From assembly GCA_002400495.2 (NCBI GenBank), contig NVQL02000015.1:22996-86995 (forward strand): a stretch of DNA of 64,000 nucleotides, in the 5' to 3' direction. This document shows, piece by piece, positions 844-58,485 of the stretch. The notes under the pieces are model-generated. The model did no database searches and was not told the origin of the DNA. It saw nothing but the letters and a program-made list of their open reading frames with translations. Within the stretch, counting starts at the first letter, position 1, and every line of letters begins with the position of its first letter. Made by a program: the position numbers and the translations under genes. This stretch comes from Alphaproteobacteria bacterium (GTDB lineage Bacteria; Pseudomonadota; Alphaproteobacteria; Rhizobiales; OSC116).

Positions 844-1190
844 GCTTGGCCCCTGCGGGCGCGATACTCCGCATCGCTTGCTGCGCCTAACGGCGACGCG
901 CGGTCGCGCTTGCCTCAGCCTAGCGGCTTCGGACTCTTTTTCCAAGATTGGCAGCACGGAAACAAGAAGCTAATGCTGAATTTGCTTCGTGGCACTTGAG
1001 TACGGAGTTTCGCCAAACTCCAGCTAACTTAGCTTAATGAGGTCAACTTGGGTGCCGAATTCACATCCGACCAGCGGCCGAGTGGCTTAGCAAGTGAACG
1101 GAGTGAACGCACGCAGTGTAAGCATAGGAGCGAAGCGACAAAGCGCGGAGCGAACGCACGCAGTGCCAAGTATAAAGCAAACTTCCAGAG
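844..1190 (+). repeat. Dispersed palindromic intergenic repeat, copy A
   Basis: Shares blocks with copies B-D: GCCTAACGGCGACGCGC.GTCGCGCTTGCCTCAGC, CCAGCGGC.GAGTGGCTTAGC, GGAGCGAACGCACGCAGTGCCAA, AACTTCCAGAGC. Confidence 0.8.
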
Positions 1191-10154: not shown

Positions 10155-10473
10155 ATGCTTGGCACTGCGTGCGTTCGCTCCGCTCTCTAGCCACGCCTAA
10201 CGGCGACGCGCAGTCGCGCTTGCCTCAGCTTAAAGGCTTCGGACTCTTTTCCCAAGCAAAGCACAATGAGTAAACTATTTAGCACCTATACTCGGTGCTT
10301 CGCCAAACTCTAGCTAACTTAGCTCACTAAGCATAATGCGGTTAGGTTGGGTGGTGAGTTTACATCCGACCAGCGGCTGAGTGGCTTAGCTAGAGAGCGG
10401 AGCGAACGCACGCAGTGCCAAACATAATGCAGACTTCCAGAGCCTAGGCAGGAGTGCTACCCTGTATAGGCTG
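10153..10473 (+). repeat. Dispersed palindromic intergenic repeat, copy B, with long terminal inverted repeats
   Basis: TTATGCTTGGCACTGCGTGCGTTCGCTCCGCTCTCTAG (10153-10190) is the inverse of 10390-10427 with one mismatch; it continues to AACTTCCAGAGC-like and GCAGGAGTGCTACCCTGTATAGGCTG blocks. Confidence 0.88.
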
Positions 10474-10515
10474 TAAAAAGACAGTTGCTTGGTGACGTTT
10501 ACCATCTTAAAATAG

Positions 10516-11541
10516 GTGTATATGAAAATCTCAGAAGTAAAAACACATGCAAAGCATTGGGCTGAAGATAATATTTCTAACCTCAGTGGGTTTGTTGGAG
10601 CTTATTTAACGGGTTCGACAATCTGGAAGAATGAGGATGAGCTGCATGCGCCTAGTTCTGATGTGGATATATTTATTGTCATGCAAACTGATGAATTGCC
10701 AGCGAAAATTGGTAAGATAAATTATCAAAATGTTACGTTAGAAATTAATTTCATTAATTTTGCCAGCATTTCCGATCCACGGGTTATATTGGCGCAATAT
10801 CACATTGCCAATGCCTTTTATAAAGACTCGATATTGCTTGACCCCTTGGGGCAATTGGCGCCGATCCTCAAGGCTGTTAAGGCGCAATTTGCTGAACCTA
10901 TTTGGGTGACAAAAAGATGTGAAGATGCTCGAGAAAATGCTAAAAACTGGCTAAAAGTATTTCAGCAAGCTTCGGAATTACACGATCAAATCACGGCTCT
11001 GTTTTTTGCGGCTGGTGTTACGACTCACATGCTATTGGTGGCGGGGTTGAAAAACCCGACGATTCGGCGGCGCTATGTTGAATGTAACATTCTGCTGCAG
11101 CAATGTGATTATGGCGATATTTGTAACGCTCTGCTGACTACGCTTGGCAGCCAAAGTCTGAGCCAACAAACCGTCTTAGATCATCTGAACAAATTAAATG
11201 AGCATTTTACGACGGCCTGTAAAGTTATGAAATCACCTTATATGTTTGCGGCAGATATGAGTATGGATTTAAAATCCATCGCGATTGGTGGCAGCGCTGA
11301 AATGATTGAGGCTGGATATCATAGAGAGGCGGTGTTTTGGCTGATTGCCATTTATGGCCGCAGCCGCGCGGTTATATATGCTGATGGCAGTGAGGCACAA
11401 TTAAATGCCATTGATGCCGATTTATGGAGCTTGCTTAATGATTTAGGCATTGATAACCAGCAAGACATGGATATACGTGCCACAATGATTGCAGATGACA
11501 TTGAAACTACGTGGCAAATCGCGATGAAAATTATAGCTTAA
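10516..11541 (+). CDS. Nucleotidyltransferase-domain protein of unknown function
   Basis: 341 aa; YLTGSTIWKNEDELHAPSSDVDIFIV resembles the GS...DxD motif of the Pol-beta NTase fold. Confidence 0.6.
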   Translation: MYMKISEVKTHAKHWAEDNISNLSGFVGAYLTGSTIWKNEDELHAPSSDVDIFIVMQTDELPAKIGKINYQNVTLEINFINFASISDPRVILAQYHIANAFYKDSILLDPLGQLAPILKAVKAQFAEPIWVTKRCEDARENAKNWLKVFQQASELHDQITALFFAAGVTTHMLLVAGLKNPTIRRRYVECNILLQQCDYGDICNALLTTLGSQSLSQQTVLDHLNKLNEHFTTACKVMKSPYMFAADMSMDLKSIAIGGSAEMIEAGYHREAVFWLIAIYGRSRAVIYADGSEAQLNAIDADLWSLLNDLGIDNQQDMDIRATMIADDIETTWQIAMKIIA

Positions 11542-12665
11542 ATTAATTTATAAGTAACGCAGCCTGTGTCGTCGTAGGTTTTGAGTTTTTTCTTGAGCGT
11601 GCTGCGTTTTAGCAAACCAGATTGGGTATCAACTTTACCAACCACTGAGGCTGAATTTAGCGTTGCAGCATGGGCGGCATCTTGTATCGATGCGCCATCA
11701 ACCAAAAGTGAGGCAAATGTCGAGAAGAAAGCATCGCCAGCGCCTGCTGTGCCTTTCACTTCAACTTTATTGGCCTTGCAAAAATACATGCCGTCTTTGG
11801 TGCCAATATAAGCGCCTTCTTTGCCATTGGTCAGCACAAAGGTTTCAATGCCCAAATCAATAATGGTGGCGAAAAAATCACCTAATGACATTGTAAAGCC
11901 GCCCGAAGATAAGCCGTTGGCTACCAATTCTGGTATATTCTCGGATTCATCACCAACATTGATTAACGGATGGGTTTTGGATAGTTTGGCTTTTTTGGCA
12001 TCTCTTAAAATGAGTGGTATTAATTTGGCGGTCTCTGCGGAGTTTAAAGACAATATATCAATCAGCTTCAAACTTTTAAAGAAATCTTCACTGCGTGATG
12101 ACAATTGGCGAATGCCAGGGTTGGCCGCCACTTTGGCACCAGATTGTTTGGCCAAAGCCACAATGTGTGGAAAGGCCGCGCTTGAATCGCCTGAAAGACC
12201 TGTGATGTAAACCAAATCCATGCCAGCAAAATGTTCAGCCCTCACTTCATCGGAACGCAAACGGGTGTTAGCACCGCGCGCGACAAATATGGTTGGGTTT
12301 TTAACATGCGATGAAACCATGATAGAGCGGCCAGTGGCGGCTTTTTCAGTGACAATCACATGATCGGCATTGATACCTTCTTTTGCATAGACGTCAGTTA
12401 CATTAACACCTGCATAGTCATCACCAATTTTAACGATGGACGACATATCAAAGCCCAACCGCGCCATAGACACAGCCGCATTGGTGGCACCGCCGCCAAC
12501 AAAGGCTTCAATGCTTTCGGCTTCGACTTTGTGGCCTTCTTCAAACAATAGATAAGAAGAGGTGGCGTTATGCATGGTCATCCGTTCAATGAATTCATCT
12601 TCAATGATGGCGATAAAATCATTTGTTGCGCCGCCGATGGTAATGGCTTTCATAGTGGCATCCAC
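11538..12665 (-). CDS. PfkB-family carbohydrate/adenosine kinase
   Basis: 375 aa; GGGATNAAVSMARLG and C-terminal GTAGAGDAFFSTFAS (PfkB signatures). Confidence 0.88.
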   Translation of the reverse strand: MDATMKAITIGGATNDFIAIIEDEFIERMTMHNATSSYLLFEEGHKVEAESIEAFVGGGATNAAVSMARLGFDMSSIVKIGDDYAGVNVTDVYAKEGINADHVIVTEKAATGRSIMVSSHVKNPTIFVARGANTRLRSDEVRAEHFAGMDLVYITGLSGDSSAAFPHIVALAKQSGAKVAANPGIRQLSSRSEDFFKSLKLIDILSLNSAETAKLIPLILRDAKKAKLSKTHPLINVGDESENIPELVANGLSSGGFTMSLGDFFATIIDLGIETFVLTNGKEGAYIGTKDGMYFCKANKVEVKGTAGAGDAFFSTFASLLVDGASIQDAAHAATLNSASVVGKVDTQSGLLKRSTLKKKLKTYDDTGCVTYKLI

Positions 12666-12692
12666 TTAAATTATTATTTTTACATTTCATAT

Positions 12693-12721
12693 GCCAGCGG
12701 GGGTTTTTCTCCCCCGCTGGC
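12693..12721. terminator. Strong inverted repeat between aldolase and kinase genes (terminator or mRNA-stabilising hairpin)
   Basis: GCCAGCGGGGG-TTTTTCT-CCCCCGCTGGC; no clear T-tract on either side. Confidence 0.5.
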
Positions 12722-12746
12722 TAAACTTATATGTCCAGGTGGACGA

Positions 12747-13838
12747 TTATTTGGCGATAGATTTGCCATAAGATTGCAGGTCTTTAAACGATTCAACCAT
12801 ACGATCAGCAAAACCAATTTCGCAAGCCCGCACCCATTTACGTGGGTCGTAAAACTTCTTATATGGTGTGCCGTCTGCGGGGTCGATTTGGTGCTTAAAT
12901 GCAATGGCGTGGGCATCTACATAGTCACCAATTGGTTTGGCATAGGCAAATTGAGTGTCGGTGTCGATGTTCATTTTGAACACTCCATAACCCAATGCTT
13001 CGGCAATTTTGGCTTTTTCTGAGCCTGAACCGCCATGGAAAACCAAATGCAGTGGATTGTCAGCTAAATTGTGCGTTTTTTGAACTAAAGACTGAGAGTT
13101 TTTCAAAATTTCTGGGCGCAATTCAACATTGCCTGGCTTGTAAACGCCATGGACGTTGCCAAAACTTGCAGCTACAGAGAAATGGCCGATTGGGTTGAGC
13201 AGGTCGTAAGCTGCCAAAACATCTTCAGGTTGGGTGTAAAGATGGTCGGTATTGGCGCCTTCTTCAAGGTCATGACCAACGCCATCTTCTTCGCCGCCGG
13301 TGATGCCCAATTCAATCTCCAGCGACATATCGATTTTGGCCATACGTTCTAAATAACGGGCAGATGTTTCAAGGTTTACGCTTGTGTCTTCTTCGGACAA
13401 GTCAATCATATGGCTCGAGAATAATGGATGGCCGTGAATTTTGTAATAAGCTTCACCAAAATCAAGCAGGCCGTCAATCCATGGTAGGAATTTACGGTTG
13501 GCATGATCGGTATGCAAAACAACTGCCACGCCATAATGTTCGGCCATTAAATGCACGTGATGGCAGGCTGATACGCCGCCTTTTACACGGGCTGTATGCG
13601 AGTCGGCCAATGAAGGGCCGCCAAAAAATGCCGCGCCACCATTTGACATCTGAATGATGATGTCAGAGCCAGCTTTTGCCGCTGCTTCTAGTGCCGCATT
13701 GGCAGTGCTGGTGCTGGTTACGTTAACCGCAGGCAATGCATAGCCGCCAGATTTGCATGCATCGACCAATTCGAAATATGCTTTACCAGTCACAACGCCT
13801 GGTTTTAAAGAATTCGTACCCATAATTTTTCCCTTCAT
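12747..13838 (-). CDS. fbaA: Class II fructose-bisphosphate aldolase (FbaA type)
   Basis: 363 aa; YALPAVNVTSTSTANAALEAAAKAGSDIIIQMSNGGAAFFGG; VVLHTDHANRKFLPWIDGLL. Confidence 0.93.
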   Translation of the reverse strand: MKGKIMGTNSLKPGVVTGKAYFELVDACKSGGYALPAVNVTSTSTANAALEAAAKAGSDIIIQMSNGGAAFFGGPSLADSHTARVKGGVSACHHVHLMAEHYGVAVVLHTDHANRKFLPWIDGLLDFGEAYYKIHGHPLFSSHMIDLSEEDTSVNLETSARYLERMAKIDMSLEIELGITGGEEDGVGHDLEEGANTDHLYTQPEDVLAAYDLLNPIGHFSVAASFGNVHGVYKPGNVELRPEILKNSQSLVQKTHNLADNPLHLVFHGGSGSEKAKIAEALGYGVFKMNIDTDTQFAYAKPIGDYVDAHAIAFKHQIDPADGTPYKKFYDPRKWVRACEIGFADRMVESFKDLQSYGKSIAK

Positions 13839-13943: not shown

Positions 13944-14723
13944 TTAGACAATAGACGGAAAGCGTGTGGTTTTTACATCCAATTGCAGTTCAGTTACAAA
14001 ATCATAGCTGTCGCCACGATAGAATGAGCGGGTAAATTCGACCGCGCGGCCATCCTTTAAATACGAGCGTCTTTCCATATAAAGCGCGACGCTATTGGCA
14101 CCCAGATTCAGCAATTCGGCCATTTCGGGGCTGAATAGCTCGGCGCGCAAACGCTGCAAGGCGCGGTATGGGCGGTGATTTGTCGAGGTTAGCACATCGT
14201 ATAAAGACAGGGTGACCAGATCTGGCGAGGGCAAAAATATGCGCGGCACGGTGGTATATTCAATGGCCACCGGTTTATCTGCACCATAACGTATACGCGC
14301 CAAGCGCGAAACTTCGGTACCGGGTGATATATTCAACGCCATGGCCTCTTCGGGGCTGGCAACGCCAATAGAGCGGTCAAGCCACTTTACTCCCGGGGTC
14401 ATGCCGCGTTTGGCCATTTCTTCTGTAAAGCCAGTGAGTTTGGACATTGGCTGTTCCATACGGCCTTTGACGAATGTGCCCGCACCTTGGCGTTGGACAA
14501 GCAAGCCTTCATCTACCAGTTCACGCACGGCTTTGCGCACCGTCACGCGTGAAATGCCCAAGTCGGCTGCAATGTCGCGTTCGGCAGGAATGGCATCATC
14601 AACTGCAATAGCACCAAGCTCCATAGCTTCTTTAATCAATTGTTGTAATTGACGATAAAGCGGAGTTGGGCTGCCTTCATTAAGATGGAAATTTGAAAAT
14701 ACTGTACTCTCAGATTTTGCCAT
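13944..14723 (-). CDS. GntR-family regulator with UTRA domain (HutC/NagR type)
   Basis: 259 aa; IPAERDIAADLGISRVTVRKAVRELVDEGLLVQRQGAGTFV plus C-terminal UTRA. Confidence 0.9.
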   Translation of the reverse strand: MAKSESTVFSNFHLNEGSPTPLYRQLQQLIKEAMELGAIAVDDAIPAERDIAADLGISRVTVRKAVRELVDEGLLVQRQGAGTFVKGRMEQPMSKLTGFTEEMAKRGMTPGVKWLDRSIGVASPEEAMALNISPGTEVSRLARIRYGADKPVAIEYTTVPRIFLPSPDLVTLSLYDVLTSTNHRPYRALQRLRAELFSPEMAELLNLGANSVALYMERRSYLKDGRAVEFTRSFYRGDSYDFVTELQLDVKTTRFPSIV

Positions 14724-14844: not shown

Positions 14845-14880
14845 TAATACCAATGTGATACCATTTTTACGTTGGTATTA
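14845..14880. promoter_or_regulatory. Candidate GntR operator: inverted TAATACCAA...TTGGTATTA
   Basis: Perfect 9-bp inverted repeat, 18 bp apart, with a further ATACCA inside; more half-sites at 14968-14975 and 15098-15105. Confidence 0.45.
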
Positions 14881-15039
14881 CCCTGTGGAAATATTACTTT
14901 ATATTATATTTATCAGATAGTTATCTAACTACCATTTTAGTAAATATTGTGTATTGGGGGTAAAACATAATACCATTCATACAAATTATTGACAGAGGTA
15001 TTGTATTGGTTTCTAGATCGGCTATAAATATATTGTGAA

Positions 15040-15270
15040 CTTTTGTTGGACACGTTTTTTGTCAGAGTGCTCTTCGGAGCACACGCCCAATTTAATCTGG
15101 TATTATAACATACGCCCAATTTTTGTTATAAGTGAAAGTTAAACTTCGGTTTAATAGTGTTCATTGGTTTACAATCCTACCTTTGGTTGGCCCTTTAACC
15201 GCTCCATATCATTCTTTTAGAATGATTGGTGCGGTTTATCTTTGGCCCTTGGCCAAAGATAAACCTTTTT
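15040..15270 (+). ncRNA. Candidate structured non-coding RNA (5' end uncertain)
   Basis: Noncoding stretch with GTGCTC-TTCG-GAGCAC, TTATAACA...TGTTATAA, GTTAAAC-TTCG-GTTTAAT, an approximately 16-bp imperfect stem at 15200-15236, and an intrinsic terminator. Confidence 0.4.
15233..15270 (+). terminator. Intrinsic terminator
   Basis: GGTTTATCTTTGGCC-CTT-GGCCAAAGATAAACC followed by TTTTT; 15-bp perfect stem. Confidence 0.8.
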
Positions 15271-15273
15271 ATG

Positions 15274-15812
15274 TCAGGCCACTGCGTGCGCGATGCTCCG
15301 CATCGCTTGCTAAGCCACTCAGCCGCTGGTCAGATGCGAATTCGGCACCCCAATTATACTCATTAAGCTAAGTTAGCTGGAGTTTGGCGAAGCTCCGAAT
15401 TCTGGTGGTATCCTTGTTGATGCTCTGGAAGAAGTTTTTTGTTTGGCACTGCACCCCAAGGGCACTTTGTCGCTTCGCTCGGGCGCGTGCGTTCGCTCCG
15501 CTCTCTAGCTAAGCCACTCAGCCGCTGGTCGGGAGCAGATGCACCACCCAATCTAACCGCATTACGCTTAGTGAGCTAGAGCTTGGCGAAACTCCGCATT
15601 CTGGTGCCATGCTGTAAATTCAGAATTTGCTACTTGATGCCAAGCTGTCTGTCATGGAAAAAGGGTCCGAAGCCCTTGGGCTGAGGCAAGCGCGACTGCG
15701 CGTCGCCGTTAGGCGTGGCAAGAGAGCGGAGCGAACGCACGCTAGTGCTTATAGAGAGCAACGCGAACGATAAAAGAGAGGCGCAGCCGAACGAAAAAAT
15801 GCATCACCAAAC
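15274..15812 (-). repeat. Dispersed palindromic repeat, copy C (compound: a partial plus a full unit, inverted relative to A/B)
   Basis: Contains CTAAGCCACTCAGCCGCTGGTC twice; 22-bp inverted arms GCGTGCGTTCGCTCCGCTCTCT (15485-15506) and 15721-15742. Confidence 0.82.
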
Positions 15813-18450: not shown

Positions 18451-18852
18451 CTCTTTTTTCGTTCGCGTTGCTCTCTAGTAGCCCTGCGGGCGTTCGCTCC
18501 GCTCTCTAGCTAAGCCACTCGGCCGCTGATGGGACGTAAACTCACCACCCAACCTAACCGCATTACACTTAGTGAGCTAGAGTTTGGCGAAACTCTGCAT
18601 TTCGGTGCGTCCAACAAATTCTGAATTTGCTGTTTGGTGCTATACTGCTTTTCATGGAAAAAGGGTCCTCGCCCGTAGGGTGAGGCAAGCGCGACTGCGC
18701 GTCGCCGTTAGGCGTGGCAAGAGAGCGGAGCGAACGCACGCTAGTGCTAATAGAGAGCAACGCGAACGATAAAAGAGAGGCAAAGCCGAACGAAAAAATG
18801 CAAACTTCCAGAGCATGGGCAGGAGTGCCACCCTGTATAGGCTGCATCACTT
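18451..18852 (-). repeat. Dispersed palindromic repeat, copy D, with nested inverted arms
   Basis: Outer 19-bp arms 18459-18477/18751-18769 and inner 18-bp arms 18490-18507/18720-18737, all perfect; highly similar to copy C. Confidence 0.85.
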
Positions 18853-54592: not shown

Positions 54593-55915
54593 ATGCAAAA
54601 GCAAGTGAAATATAAATTTAAAAACCTGCCTGAAGCCGCACGAAAACACGTGCGGCTATTTCAAGTTCACCAATTTTTTACTTTAGGTGCCGTGGGCATC
54701 ACTATGGTTATTTTGGTATTGTTGTTGCAAGAGCGCGGTTATAATTTGTTCGACATTGCCATTTTAATGGGCACTTATTCGGCTGCAACATTGTTGTGTG
54801 AACTGCCACTTGGTGGCTTGGCCGATGGCATTGGCCGTAAGCCTGTTTTCATCGTCTCACTGTTGGCTAATATTGTTAGTGTTTTGGTGCTGCTTTTTTA
54901 TCAATCTTATATCTCTGCCCTTATAAGTTTTGCGTTGTATGGCGTTGGCCGCGCGCTTAGTTCTGGCACTATGGATGCTTGGTATATAGAGACATTTAAC
55001 AGGCTAGCCCCACGATTTGGCACTGTGCCAATATTGGCAAAAATGCACTTTGCAGGCGCAACGGGGCTTGCTATTGGTGCCGTTGCGGGCGGTTTTATGG
55101 CTGATTATTTTGGCCCAAAACTCGCGGTATATGGGTTTGGTATTTATGATGCACCGCTTATGGGGGAGCTAGCCATTACATTATTTGTTCTGTTTTTCAA
55201 CCTTGCGCTGATTAAAGAAGATCGTCATCCGCTCAATCGGCAAGTGATAAAATCAGGTTTTACCAATGTGCCTTTGATGATTAAAGACTCGTTTCATTAC
55301 GCGTCGCGGCATCATATTGTATCCATTCTTTTGGTATCTATAGGACTGGCAAGTGCGGCTTTATTTGCGCTCGAAACTTTTTGGATACCGTTTGCTAAGC
55401 CGATGATTGATAGTGAATTCGCGGTGGTTTTCATTGGCATTATTAGTGGGGTATACTTCTTTTCGATGGCCATTGGCGCGGCTTTTTCTGAGCCTGTGGT
55501 GAATATATTTAAAGGCCATAATGCCAAAGCATTGGCTTTTTTGGTGGTGCTTTCTGGGTTGCTTTTTATTGGCCTATCACTGACCAACAATATTTATATT
55601 TTCATTGTGGTGCTGTTTGCGCTTAATAGCATATTGGGGGCGCAAAATGCGCCTGGGGAAAGCCTGTTTCATGATTATGTGCCTGATAATAAACGCTCGA
55701 CCTTATTGTCATTGCAATCGGTTATCGGGCAAGTGGGTGGATTGCTGGGTGTAATAAGCTTGGGTTATATTGCAGAACAATTTGGCATTGCCACAGCTTG
55801 GCAATTGGGCGGGGTGATTGTGATTATTGCTGGCTTGGTTTTGTTGGTTTTGCCAAAACGTATGGCGAATACGCCTGTGGTTAGCCATGATATGGGGGGA
55901 AATAATGAAGACTAA
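54593..55915 (+). CDS. MFS transporter, tandem paralogue 1
   Basis: 440 aa; FDIAILMGTYSAATLLCELPLGGLADGIGRKPVF. Confidence 0.9.
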   Translation: MQKQVKYKFKNLPEAARKHVRLFQVHQFFTLGAVGITMVILVLLLQERGYNLFDIAILMGTYSAATLLCELPLGGLADGIGRKPVFIVSLLANIVSVLVLLFYQSYISALISFALYGVGRALSSGTMDAWYIETFNRLAPRFGTVPILAKMHFAGATGLAIGAVAGGFMADYFGPKLAVYGFGIYDAPLMGELAITLFVLFFNLALIKEDRHPLNRQVIKSGFTNVPLMIKDSFHYASRHHIVSILLVSIGLASAALFALETFWIPFAKPMIDSEFAVVFIGIISGVYFFSMAIGAAFSEPVVNIFKGHNAKALAFLVVLSGLLFIGLSLTNNIYIFIVVLFALNSILGAQNAPGESLFHDYVPDNKRSTLLSLQSVIGQVGGLLGVISLGYIAEQFGIATAWQLGGVIVIIAGLVLLVLPKRMANTPVVSHDMGGNNED

Positions 55916-57209
55916 TTATAAATTTAAAGACCTACCGATTGCAGCCCGAAGGCATGTGAGGATTTACCAATTTCAGCAGTTTTTAAGTTGGGGCGGGTTT
56001 GGCATCACTATTGTTGTGTTGGTTTTATTGCTGCAAGAGCGCGGTTTTAACTTGTTTGACATTGCGATTATCACTGCCACATATTCTGGTACAGCTTTAT
56101 TGTTTGAACTGCCTTTGGGCGGTTTGGCTGATGGCATCGGCCGCAAGCCTGTTTATATATTGGGTGTATTTGCTGACATTGCCGGGCTTTTAACTCTGCT
56201 GTATTTTCGTTCATTTGAAGCTGCGGTTGCTAGTTATGCATTTTATGGGTTTGGGCGGGCTTTGTCATCTGGCAGTTTGGACGCTTGGTATATTGAGACG
56301 TTTCATAAATTAGCACCTAAATTTGGCACGGTGTTGATATTGGCCAAAGTTCAATTTGGTGGCGCCATTGGTTTGGCAATTGGTGCTATATTTGGTGGGC
56401 TTATCGCCGACTTTTTCGGCTCGTATATGCACACTATTGGTTATGGAAAATATGATGCGCCGTTGATTGCTAATTTTATCGTGTCTATTTTTATGCTTTT
56501 TTATACCATTTTGGTGATTAAAGAAGATGGCCGCCCGTTCAACCGACAAGCTATAAAAAATGGCTTTGCTAATGTGCCGATTATATTGCGGGACTCGCTT
56601 AAATATGGTTTGGGGCATCAAATAGTTTTGGTTTTGTTGGTGTCTGTTGGTTTTAGCTCGCTGGCATTTTTTGTGCTTGAAACGTTTTGGATTCCGTTTG
56701 CAAAACCCATGATTGGAAGCCAATATGCGGTTTCGATCATTGGCATCATCACCTCGATATATTTCTTTTCGATCGCCATTGGGGTTAGTTTTTCAACGCC
56801 ATTGGTTGCGCTATTTAAAGGGCAAAATATCAGGGCGCTTATTTTTATCGTTGTGCTTTCTGGGATGTTTTTTATTGGCCTTTCTTTTGCGACCAATATA
56901 TATATTTTCAGCTTGGTTTTGTTTGCGCTTAACGCGGCCAAAGGCGCAAGTGGCGCGCCGCGGGATAGCCTGTTTCATGCCTATGTACCTAATAATAAGC
57001 GCTCTACATTATTGTCATTACAATCGCTTGTTATGCAAGTTGGCGGCTTGGTGGGCATGCTGGGCCTCGGCTTTGTTGCCGAAAAATATAGCATTGCGAC
57101 AGCTTGGCAATTTGGTGGGAGTATAACTATAATCTCTGGCCTTGTTTTGCTGGTTTTGCCGAAGCGCATGGAAAATACGCCTGTTGTAGGGCGTGATGAT
57201 GCGGATTGA
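55905..57209 (+). CDS. MFS transporter, tandem paralogue 2
   Basis: Start ATG 55905 overlaps the stop of paralogue 1; FDIAIITATYSGTALLFELPLGGLADGIGRKPVY. Confidence 0.9.
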   Translation: MKTNYKFKDLPIAARRHVRIYQFQQFLSWGGFGITIVVLVLLLQERGFNLFDIAIITATYSGTALLFELPLGGLADGIGRKPVYILGVFADIAGLLTLLYFRSFEAAVASYAFYGFGRALSSGSLDAWYIETFHKLAPKFGTVLILAKVQFGGAIGLAIGAIFGGLIADFFGSYMHTIGYGKYDAPLIANFIVSIFMLFYTILVIKEDGRPFNRQAIKNGFANVPIILRDSLKYGLGHQIVLVLLVSVGFSSLAFFVLETFWIPFAKPMIGSQYAVSIIGIITSIYFFSIAIGVSFSTPLVALFKGQNIRALIFIVVLSGMFFIGLSFATNIYIFSLVLFALNAAKGASGAPRDSLFHAYVPNNKRSTLLSLQSLVMQVGGLVGMLGLGFVAEKYSIATAWQFGGSITIISGLVLLVLPKRMENTPVVGRDDAD

Positions 57210-58485
57210 TTACGAGCTTAAAGACCTGCCGCTTGAAGCGCAAAAGCATTCGCGAATTTTTCGCATTCATCGGTTTATAGATGCGGCGAGTGTGGGGTTT
57301 TTTGCTGTCATTATCTTGCTGCTGTTGCAAAGCCGCGGGTTTGGATTGTTTGATATTGCGGTGCTTTTGGCGGTGTTTTCAGGAACAAGTTTAGTGCTTG
57401 AATTGCCGCTGGGTGGTTTGGCCGATGGCATTGGCCGCAAGCCAGTTTTTATGCTGTCAATTGTGGCGTTTCTATTGAGCATTCTCACCTTAATTTTATT
57501 TGAAAGCTATTGGCTCACCATGTTGAGTTTGGTCTTTATGGGGCTTCGCATGGCACTTGTGTCTGGCACATTGGCGGCATGGTTTGTCGAAAAATTTAAT
57601 CGGCTTGCGCCTGAATTTTCTACCCAACCTGTTTTGGCTAAAAACCAATTTGCAATGTTAATGGGGCAAGCAATTTCTTCGGTGGCGGGCGGTGTTATTG
57701 CTGATTTTTATGGATCGAGCTTTATTGATTATGGCATCGGTAAATTTGAACTGCCGTTGGTTGGGGCGTTTATTCTTGGTATTGTTGTTTTCATTTATAC
57801 GCATTTTTTGATTATTGAGGATCGGCATAAAATTGACCTTGTGTTGATTAAAAGTGGGTTTTCTAATTTGGGTCATATCATTTATGATTCAGGAATATAT
57901 GGTTTTAAACATCGTTTCATACTACTCATGTTGGTTGGCACCACCTGCACGAGCCTGGCTTTATACACCTTTCAAACCTTTTGGGTGCCGTTTGTGAAAC
58001 CCATGTTAAATGATGGATATGCAGCGTCAATTATTGGCATTCTAACCTTTGGCTATTATAGTTCCCAAGCCTTCGGTTCGATGATTGCGGCCCCTGCCAT
58101 TCGGCTTTTTAACGGTGATGTTGCCAAAGCATTGGCGGGTTTGACATTCATTTGTGCTTTGTGCCTTATCGGCATCTCGTTCACGACGCATATCTATGCA
58201 TTTATAGTGATGCTCGCGCTGTACACTCTATTTGTTGGGTCAACTAGCTCACCCCATAAAAGTATTTTCCATGAGCATATACCCGATGACAAACGCTCGA
58301 CTTTGTTGTCGCTTGAAGCGCTGATGGCACGGCTAGGCGGCCTTGTTGGGCTTTTATTCATTGGCTATATTGCTGATGAATTCTCCATCGCAACGGCTTT
58401 TAAGGCTGGCACTATATTCATTTTTGCGGCAAGCTTTTTATACTATATTTTGTCTCGACGCATACGCAACATTAGCAATCACTAA
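57193..58485 (+). CDS. MFS transporter, tandem paralogue 3
   Basis: 430 aa; overlaps the end of paralogue 2; FDIAVLLAVFSGTSLVLELPLGGLADGIGRKPVF. Confidence 0.9.
   Translation: MMMRIDYELKDLPLEAQKHSRIFRIHRFIDAASVGFFAVIILLLLQSRGFGLFDIAVLLAVFSGTSLVLELPLGGLADGIGRKPVFMLSIVAFLLSILTLILFESYWLTMLSLVFMGLRMALVSGTLAAWFVEKFNRLAPEFSTQPVLAKNQFAMLMGQAISSVAGGVIADFYGSSFIDYGIGKFELPLVGAFILGIVVFIYTHFLIIEDRHKIDLVLIKSGFSNLGHIIYDSGIYGFKHRFILLMLVGTTCTSLALYTFQTFWVPFVKPMLNDGYAASIIGILTFGYYSSQAFGSMIAAPAIRLFNGDVAKALAGLTFICALCLIGISFTTHIYAFIVMLALYTLFVGSTSSPHKSIFHEHIPDDKRSTLLSLEALMARLGGLVGLLFIGYIADEFSIATAFKAGTIFIFAASFLYYILSRRIRNISNH

Follow-up and report, generated by a model that had tools for sequence, protein, structure and literature searches.

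A real and hitherto undescribed small RNA gene very probably lies on the plus strand of the DNA analyzed here, a stretch of 64,000 nt (the window). The best explanation, to which we assign a probability of about 0.62, is that it encodes a non-coding RNA of about 210-235 nt that is divergent from the regulator gene nagQ, is controlled by NagQ and pairs with mRNAs. Sequence comparison among the six genomes of the genus (G000-G005, Hyphomicrobiales/OCS116-cluster MAGs), of which the source genome, G000, is a 3.96-Mb draft in 122 contigs, showed a conserved RNA block with its helices, the strand on which it lies, and two NagQ-type sites (Table 1).

An earlier note on the same DNA had proposed an independent structured small RNA at this position, and the comparative evidence favors that proposal, because the block is conserved in all six genomes, the helices show compensatory changes, a G·U bias points to the plus strand, promoter-like elements keep a fixed spacing, no plus-strand gene follows and Rfam holds no match. 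With a hairpin at its end and no conserved ORF, the block has the properties of an independent conserved non-coding unit, as in bacterial small regulatory RNAs. The link to NagQ, which was absent from the earlier note, is the most informative part of the analysis.

Table 1. Features of the small RNA locus and of the divergent nagQ operon (window coordinates)
Feature	Position	Strand	Details
PfkB-family sugar kinase gene, after the aldolase gene, same strand	11538..12665	-	PF00294
Class II fructose-bisphosphate aldolase gene, after nagQ, same strand	12747..13838	-	NF006628, 471 bits (cut-off 297)
nagQ-like regulator gene, GntR HTH + UTRA	13944..14723	-	Pfam PF00392, PF07702
NagQ-type site TGGTATCACATTGGTATT before the nagQ operon	14846..14863	-	Score 22 of 23; 22-23 in 6/6 genomes
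NagQ-type site AGGTATTGTATTGGTTTC at the RNA promoter	14996..15013	+	Score 19 of 23; 17.5-19 in 6/6 genomes
Candidate promoter, TTGTAT (15001-15006), 16-nt spacer, TATAAA (15023-15028)	15001..15028	+	Conserved, aligned without gaps
Small RNA gene, conserved extent	15035..15245	+	Kept in 6/6 genus genomes; blastn blocks stop at 15237-15244
Helix P1 (15060-15066 with 15096-15102)	15060..15102	+	100% of cells paired; one-sided changes in two pairs
Hairpin P2, GTGCTC-TTCG-GAGCAC	15067..15082	+	Two pairs changed on both sides
First CGCCCAA, candidate contact site	15084..15090	+	Invariant, identical in 6/6; predicted unpaired within P1
Hairpin P3, TTATAACA with TGTTATAA	15103..15131	+	98% of cells paired; one-sided changes in three pairs
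Second CGCCCAA, candidate contact site	15113..15119	+	Invariant, identical in 6/6; in P3 loop
Hairpin P4, GTTAAAC-TTCG-GTTTAAT	15138..15155	+	Four pairs changed on both sides; lost in G004
Hairpin P5, AACCGC...GCGGTT	15197..15236	+	In 6/6; one pair changed on both sides; followed by TTATCTTT
Perfect 15-bp intrinsic terminator + TTTTT (stem 15233-15265)	15233..15270	+	Lineage-specific, G000 and G001

The conservation of the RNA in relatives, which the earlier note had left to be checked, is evident from blastn, by which positions 15030-15280 strongly matched all five other genomes of the genus, with matches elsewhere at chance level. The block lies divergent from the same GntR gene in each of the six genomes. 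Against the distant members of the genus, identity is about 93% at 15081-15110, dips at 15141-15170, is mostly high up to about 15236 and falls off on either flank. The 5' end at 15035 was deduced from the -10 element, and the transcript may run on to about 15270 in the source genome.

A covariance model built from the six sequences did not find the RNA outside the genus: it recovered the six among 398 genomes of the order, and apart from these it gave only weak matches, both there and in 385 genomes of the class. Those in G093 and on contig C34 of G002, which have an unrelated context or fall inside a coding gene, were taken as chance, as was an 18-bit match in G609. The comparison with Rfam likewise revealed no known family, either at the gathering threshold or up to an E value of 10, the sub-threshold matches looking like chance, and no match to the RNA was found in phage and plasmid collections. 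The RNA sequence of G001 was joined across a 27-nt overlap of contig ends: both ends of the 24705-bp contig C40 of that genome lie inside the RNA gene and share identical 27-nt termini (L028 1-27, L029 12679-12705), indicating that the contig is circularized or misjoined. Elsewhere in the window, an FMN riboswitch (RF00050, 117 bits) occupies 600-748 of the minus strand.

All the hairpins described in the earlier note (P2 to P5 and the perfect 15-bp stem with its TTTTT tail) are present, and P1 encloses P2 together with the first CGCCCAA. The covariation that the note had suggested looking for was found in three of the five helices. Over the six sequences, 94% of the cells are paired, vs 90.5% in shuffles, and 7 of the 45 pairs have changed on both sides, vs 1.9 in shuffles; none of 500 shuffles reached the observed values. 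When the partners were slid by 1-3 columns, pairing dropped to 35-43%. G000, G001 and G003 being nearly identical, about four lineages contribute to these compensatory changes. Counting within the helices gives 24 G·U and 3 A·C cells, which favors the plus strand. As for stability, 15040-15275 folds far more stably than 200 shuffles (z -6.5), owing to the two 3' hairpins; taken without them, the 5' 138 nt do not exceed shuffles in stability (z -0.2, and between -1.0 and +0.2 across the six genomes), so that the support for the 5' hairpins comes from covariation.

The gene from which the RNA diverges has the GntR HTH and UTRA domains of the HutC subfamily expected of a NagQ-type regulator. NagQ belongs to the HutC subfamily, regulates the use of N-acetylglucosamine in alpha- and betaproteobacteria and is unusual in recognizing direct repeats (PMC4494728, PMC5343134), its published motif being a direct repeat of TGGTATT (PMC4494728; PMC5343134). 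In relatives, the regulator gene is linked in its operon to nagK, nagB and nagA: G004 has nagB, nagA, an aldolase and a PfkB-type kinase behind the regulator, and in G005 nagK and nagB lie on either side of it, with nagK placed between the regulator and the RNA. The nag operon of G000, G001 and G002 contains a paralogue of about 73% identity, and just the aldolase and the kinase remain with the nagQ copy next to the RNA. Within the genus, the aldolase and PfkB-family kinase genes behind this copy (window 11538-13838) form an unusual extension of a NagQ operon.

Sites with the TGGTATT direct repeat occur in all six genomes both before the nagQ operon and at the RNA promoter. The latter site, AGGTATTGNATTGGTT, is in reverse orientation and overlaps the -35 region, with TATA(A/G) following at a fixed distance; the candidate promoter itself is weak with respect to the consensus and was missed by a promoter scan. 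Besides the two NagQ-type sites, just two 18-mers in the window reach a score of 19. Operator-like sites elsewhere in the genome were also considered and set aside, as those read fall in coding sequence and their counts equal the backward control. The operon of the paralogue (nagK-nagQ2-nagA) carries, in place of the direct repeat, the inverted site ATACCAATATTATATTGGTAT (L057 8440-8470, L058 4045-4085), a hint that the two paralogues differ in operator geometry.

From the conserved site at its promoter, control of the RNA by NagQ appears likely. The small RNA gene might instead be independent of NagQ, with AGGTATTGNATTGGTT conserved just as part of the promoter. This would fit both the overlap with the -35 region and the lower scores of this site compared with the one before nagQ. 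Against this, both half-sites are kept at an 11-bp step, including bases outside the -35 box, and the mirrored site precedes amino-sugar genes in another family, which makes promoter function by itself an improbable account. Three genomes from another family of the same order indeed have the mirrored pair of NagQ sites; their divergent gene, as read from the sequence without a profile search, is murQ-like in two and encodes a sugar ABC binding protein in the third. Thus, a NagQ-type divergent promoter exists elsewhere, and within the genus the RNA replaces the protein gene.

If NagQ does control the RNA, the position of its site suggests a repressor: NagQ would occupy the site overlapping the -35 region and block the RNA promoter, an amino-sugar phosphate would free the promoter from NagQ, and the RNA would be made along with the nagQ operon when N-acetylglucosamine is present. 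The RNA would then act in trans on mRNAs by means of its two exposed CGCCCAA(UUU) copies, and the pairing would probably lower the translation of genes for uptake or for competing pathways during N-acetylglucosamine use.

Provided that the RNA is real, base pairing is the somewhat favored mode of action, and the searches for its targets, by pattern and by duplex, gave no candidate better than chance. The seed complement AATTGGGCGT occurs genome-wide at the control frequency, mostly inside genes. TTGGGCG before RGG and ATG is above the backward control, but this is uninformative, because the same excess is found in G006 and G007, genomes that lack the RNA. The gene glmS was rejected as a target, as complementarity is found in G004 only and the glmS leader contains none that is conserved. 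Among 140 genes of the source genome, the best duplex was obtained with an Asparaginase_2-family gene beside nagA (-20.4 kcal/mol; -15.8 in G001), which is a weak lead. Near their called starts, two tandem MFS transporter genes (window 55827-58485) contain stretches that could pair with the CGCCCAA copies, and they rank in the top 10 of these 140 genes for both copies; they may be either targets or chance matches.

That no mRNA target emerged would also be expected if the NagQ-linked RNA bound a protein rather than mRNAs, with the CGCCCAA stretches serving as a protein-binding motif or decoy. Both copies of the motif lie in a predicted loop or bulge beside a helix, as in protein-titrating RNAs. 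We know of no RNA-binding protein with a CGCCCAA motif, though, and small RNAs that act by base pairing often have duplicated seeds as well; protein binding is considered unlikely.

The 3' end of the RNA requires a revision of what had been proposed. The earlier note took the perfect hairpin as the terminator, preceded by an imperfect AACCGC stem. Both elements are present, but they overlap in GGTT (15233-15236), so that four pairs can form in just one of them at a time, and conservation across the genus is limited to the AACCGC stem. The perfect terminator is found in G000 and, with 14 bp, in G001; in G003 one arm of the stem is changed and the T-run is missing, and in G002, G004 and G005 the element is absent. 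It was consequently rejected as a defining feature of the RNA. The AACCGC hairpin is likely to be the ancestral terminator, since it is present in all six genomes, conservation across the genus stops just past it, and it is followed by TATTTTT in G002; its tail is poor in G004 and G005. Transcription would thus end at this hairpin, with the second, perfect one strengthening termination in the source genome.

The neighboring genes also favor an independent RNA. As the earlier note had stated, no plus-strand gene precedes or follows it. A convergent LysR gene is the 3' neighbor in G001, G002, G004 and G005, and the block is therefore no leader of a downstream gene; in the source genome, repeats and then rpsA are found instead, which shows that the RNA is not tied to what lies downstream and suggests a local rearrangement on that side. 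The dispersed repeat that adjoins the RNA on its 3' side belongs to a family seen at window 848-1118, 10162-10477, 15280-15803 and 18496-18844, as well as in close relatives.

In G004 and G005, about 13-40 nt separate the end of the LysR gene from the 3' end of the RNA, so that the block could be thought of as the 3' untranslated region or terminator of a convergent minus-strand gene. This is very improbable, because the RNA is unchanged here, where the downstream gene is a different one (rpsA behind the repeats), the G·U bias favors the opposite strand, and the AACCGC hairpin has no T-run on the minus strand. Still less probable is a dual-function RNA that also encodes a short peptide: frames of 8-31 codons starting with ATG, GTG or TTG do occur, but indels break them, and not one retains its length, frame and sequence throughout the genus. 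The ORFs of the region are short (60 aa on the minus strand, 79 aa on the plus strand), and no small ORF in the RNA core is conserved across the genus.

With its probable control by NagQ, the RNA gene divergent from nagQ would be a new example of a familiar type of control. In the enterobacterial pairs SgrS/SgrR, OxyS/OxyR and GcvB/GcvA, the small RNA gene likewise adjoins and diverges from the gene of its controlling regulator. SgrR, OxyR and GcvA mainly activate their RNA, whereas repression is inferred here, the signal differs and the RNA has no Rfam match. Activation of SgrS by SgrR is one such case (PMC4098024). The alphaproteobacterial small RNAs AbcR1 and AbcR2 are directly controlled by the metabolic regulator VtlR/LsrB (PMC7486931) and are comparable in this respect; VtlR/LsrB is a LysR-type activator, in contrast to the GntR/UTRA-type NagQ-like protein, and again the RNA described here is without an Rfam match. 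GlmY/GlmZ and ChiX, small RNAs that act in the metabolism of glucosamine and chitin sugars in enterobacteria (PMC4098024), share the tie to amino sugars, and no relation in sequence or structure to the RNA was found. The NagQ regulon of alpha- and betaproteobacteria has the same type of regulator, the TGGTATT direct repeats and the nagKAB genes (PMC5343134, PMC4494728), but its described members are protein genes, whereas the putative member considered here is an RNA gene.

Among the papers searched, small RNA and NagQ were found together in a general review only. There is about an even chance that this is the first small RNA in a NagQ regulon, specific to the genus, which replaced a murQ or sugar transporter gene at a divergent NagQ promoter and added post-transcriptional control of amino-sugar use in marine alphaproteobacteria. 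Among the important carbon and nitrogen sources in the sea are chitin and cell-wall N-acetylglucosamine; the control of their use by small RNAs is known mainly from enterobacteria and vibrios. Given that another family has a protein gene at the mirrored promoter, the NagQ-linked RNA of OCS116-type alphaproteobacteria would, if true, represent a clear and testable case of how an already existing sugar regulon recruits a small RNA.
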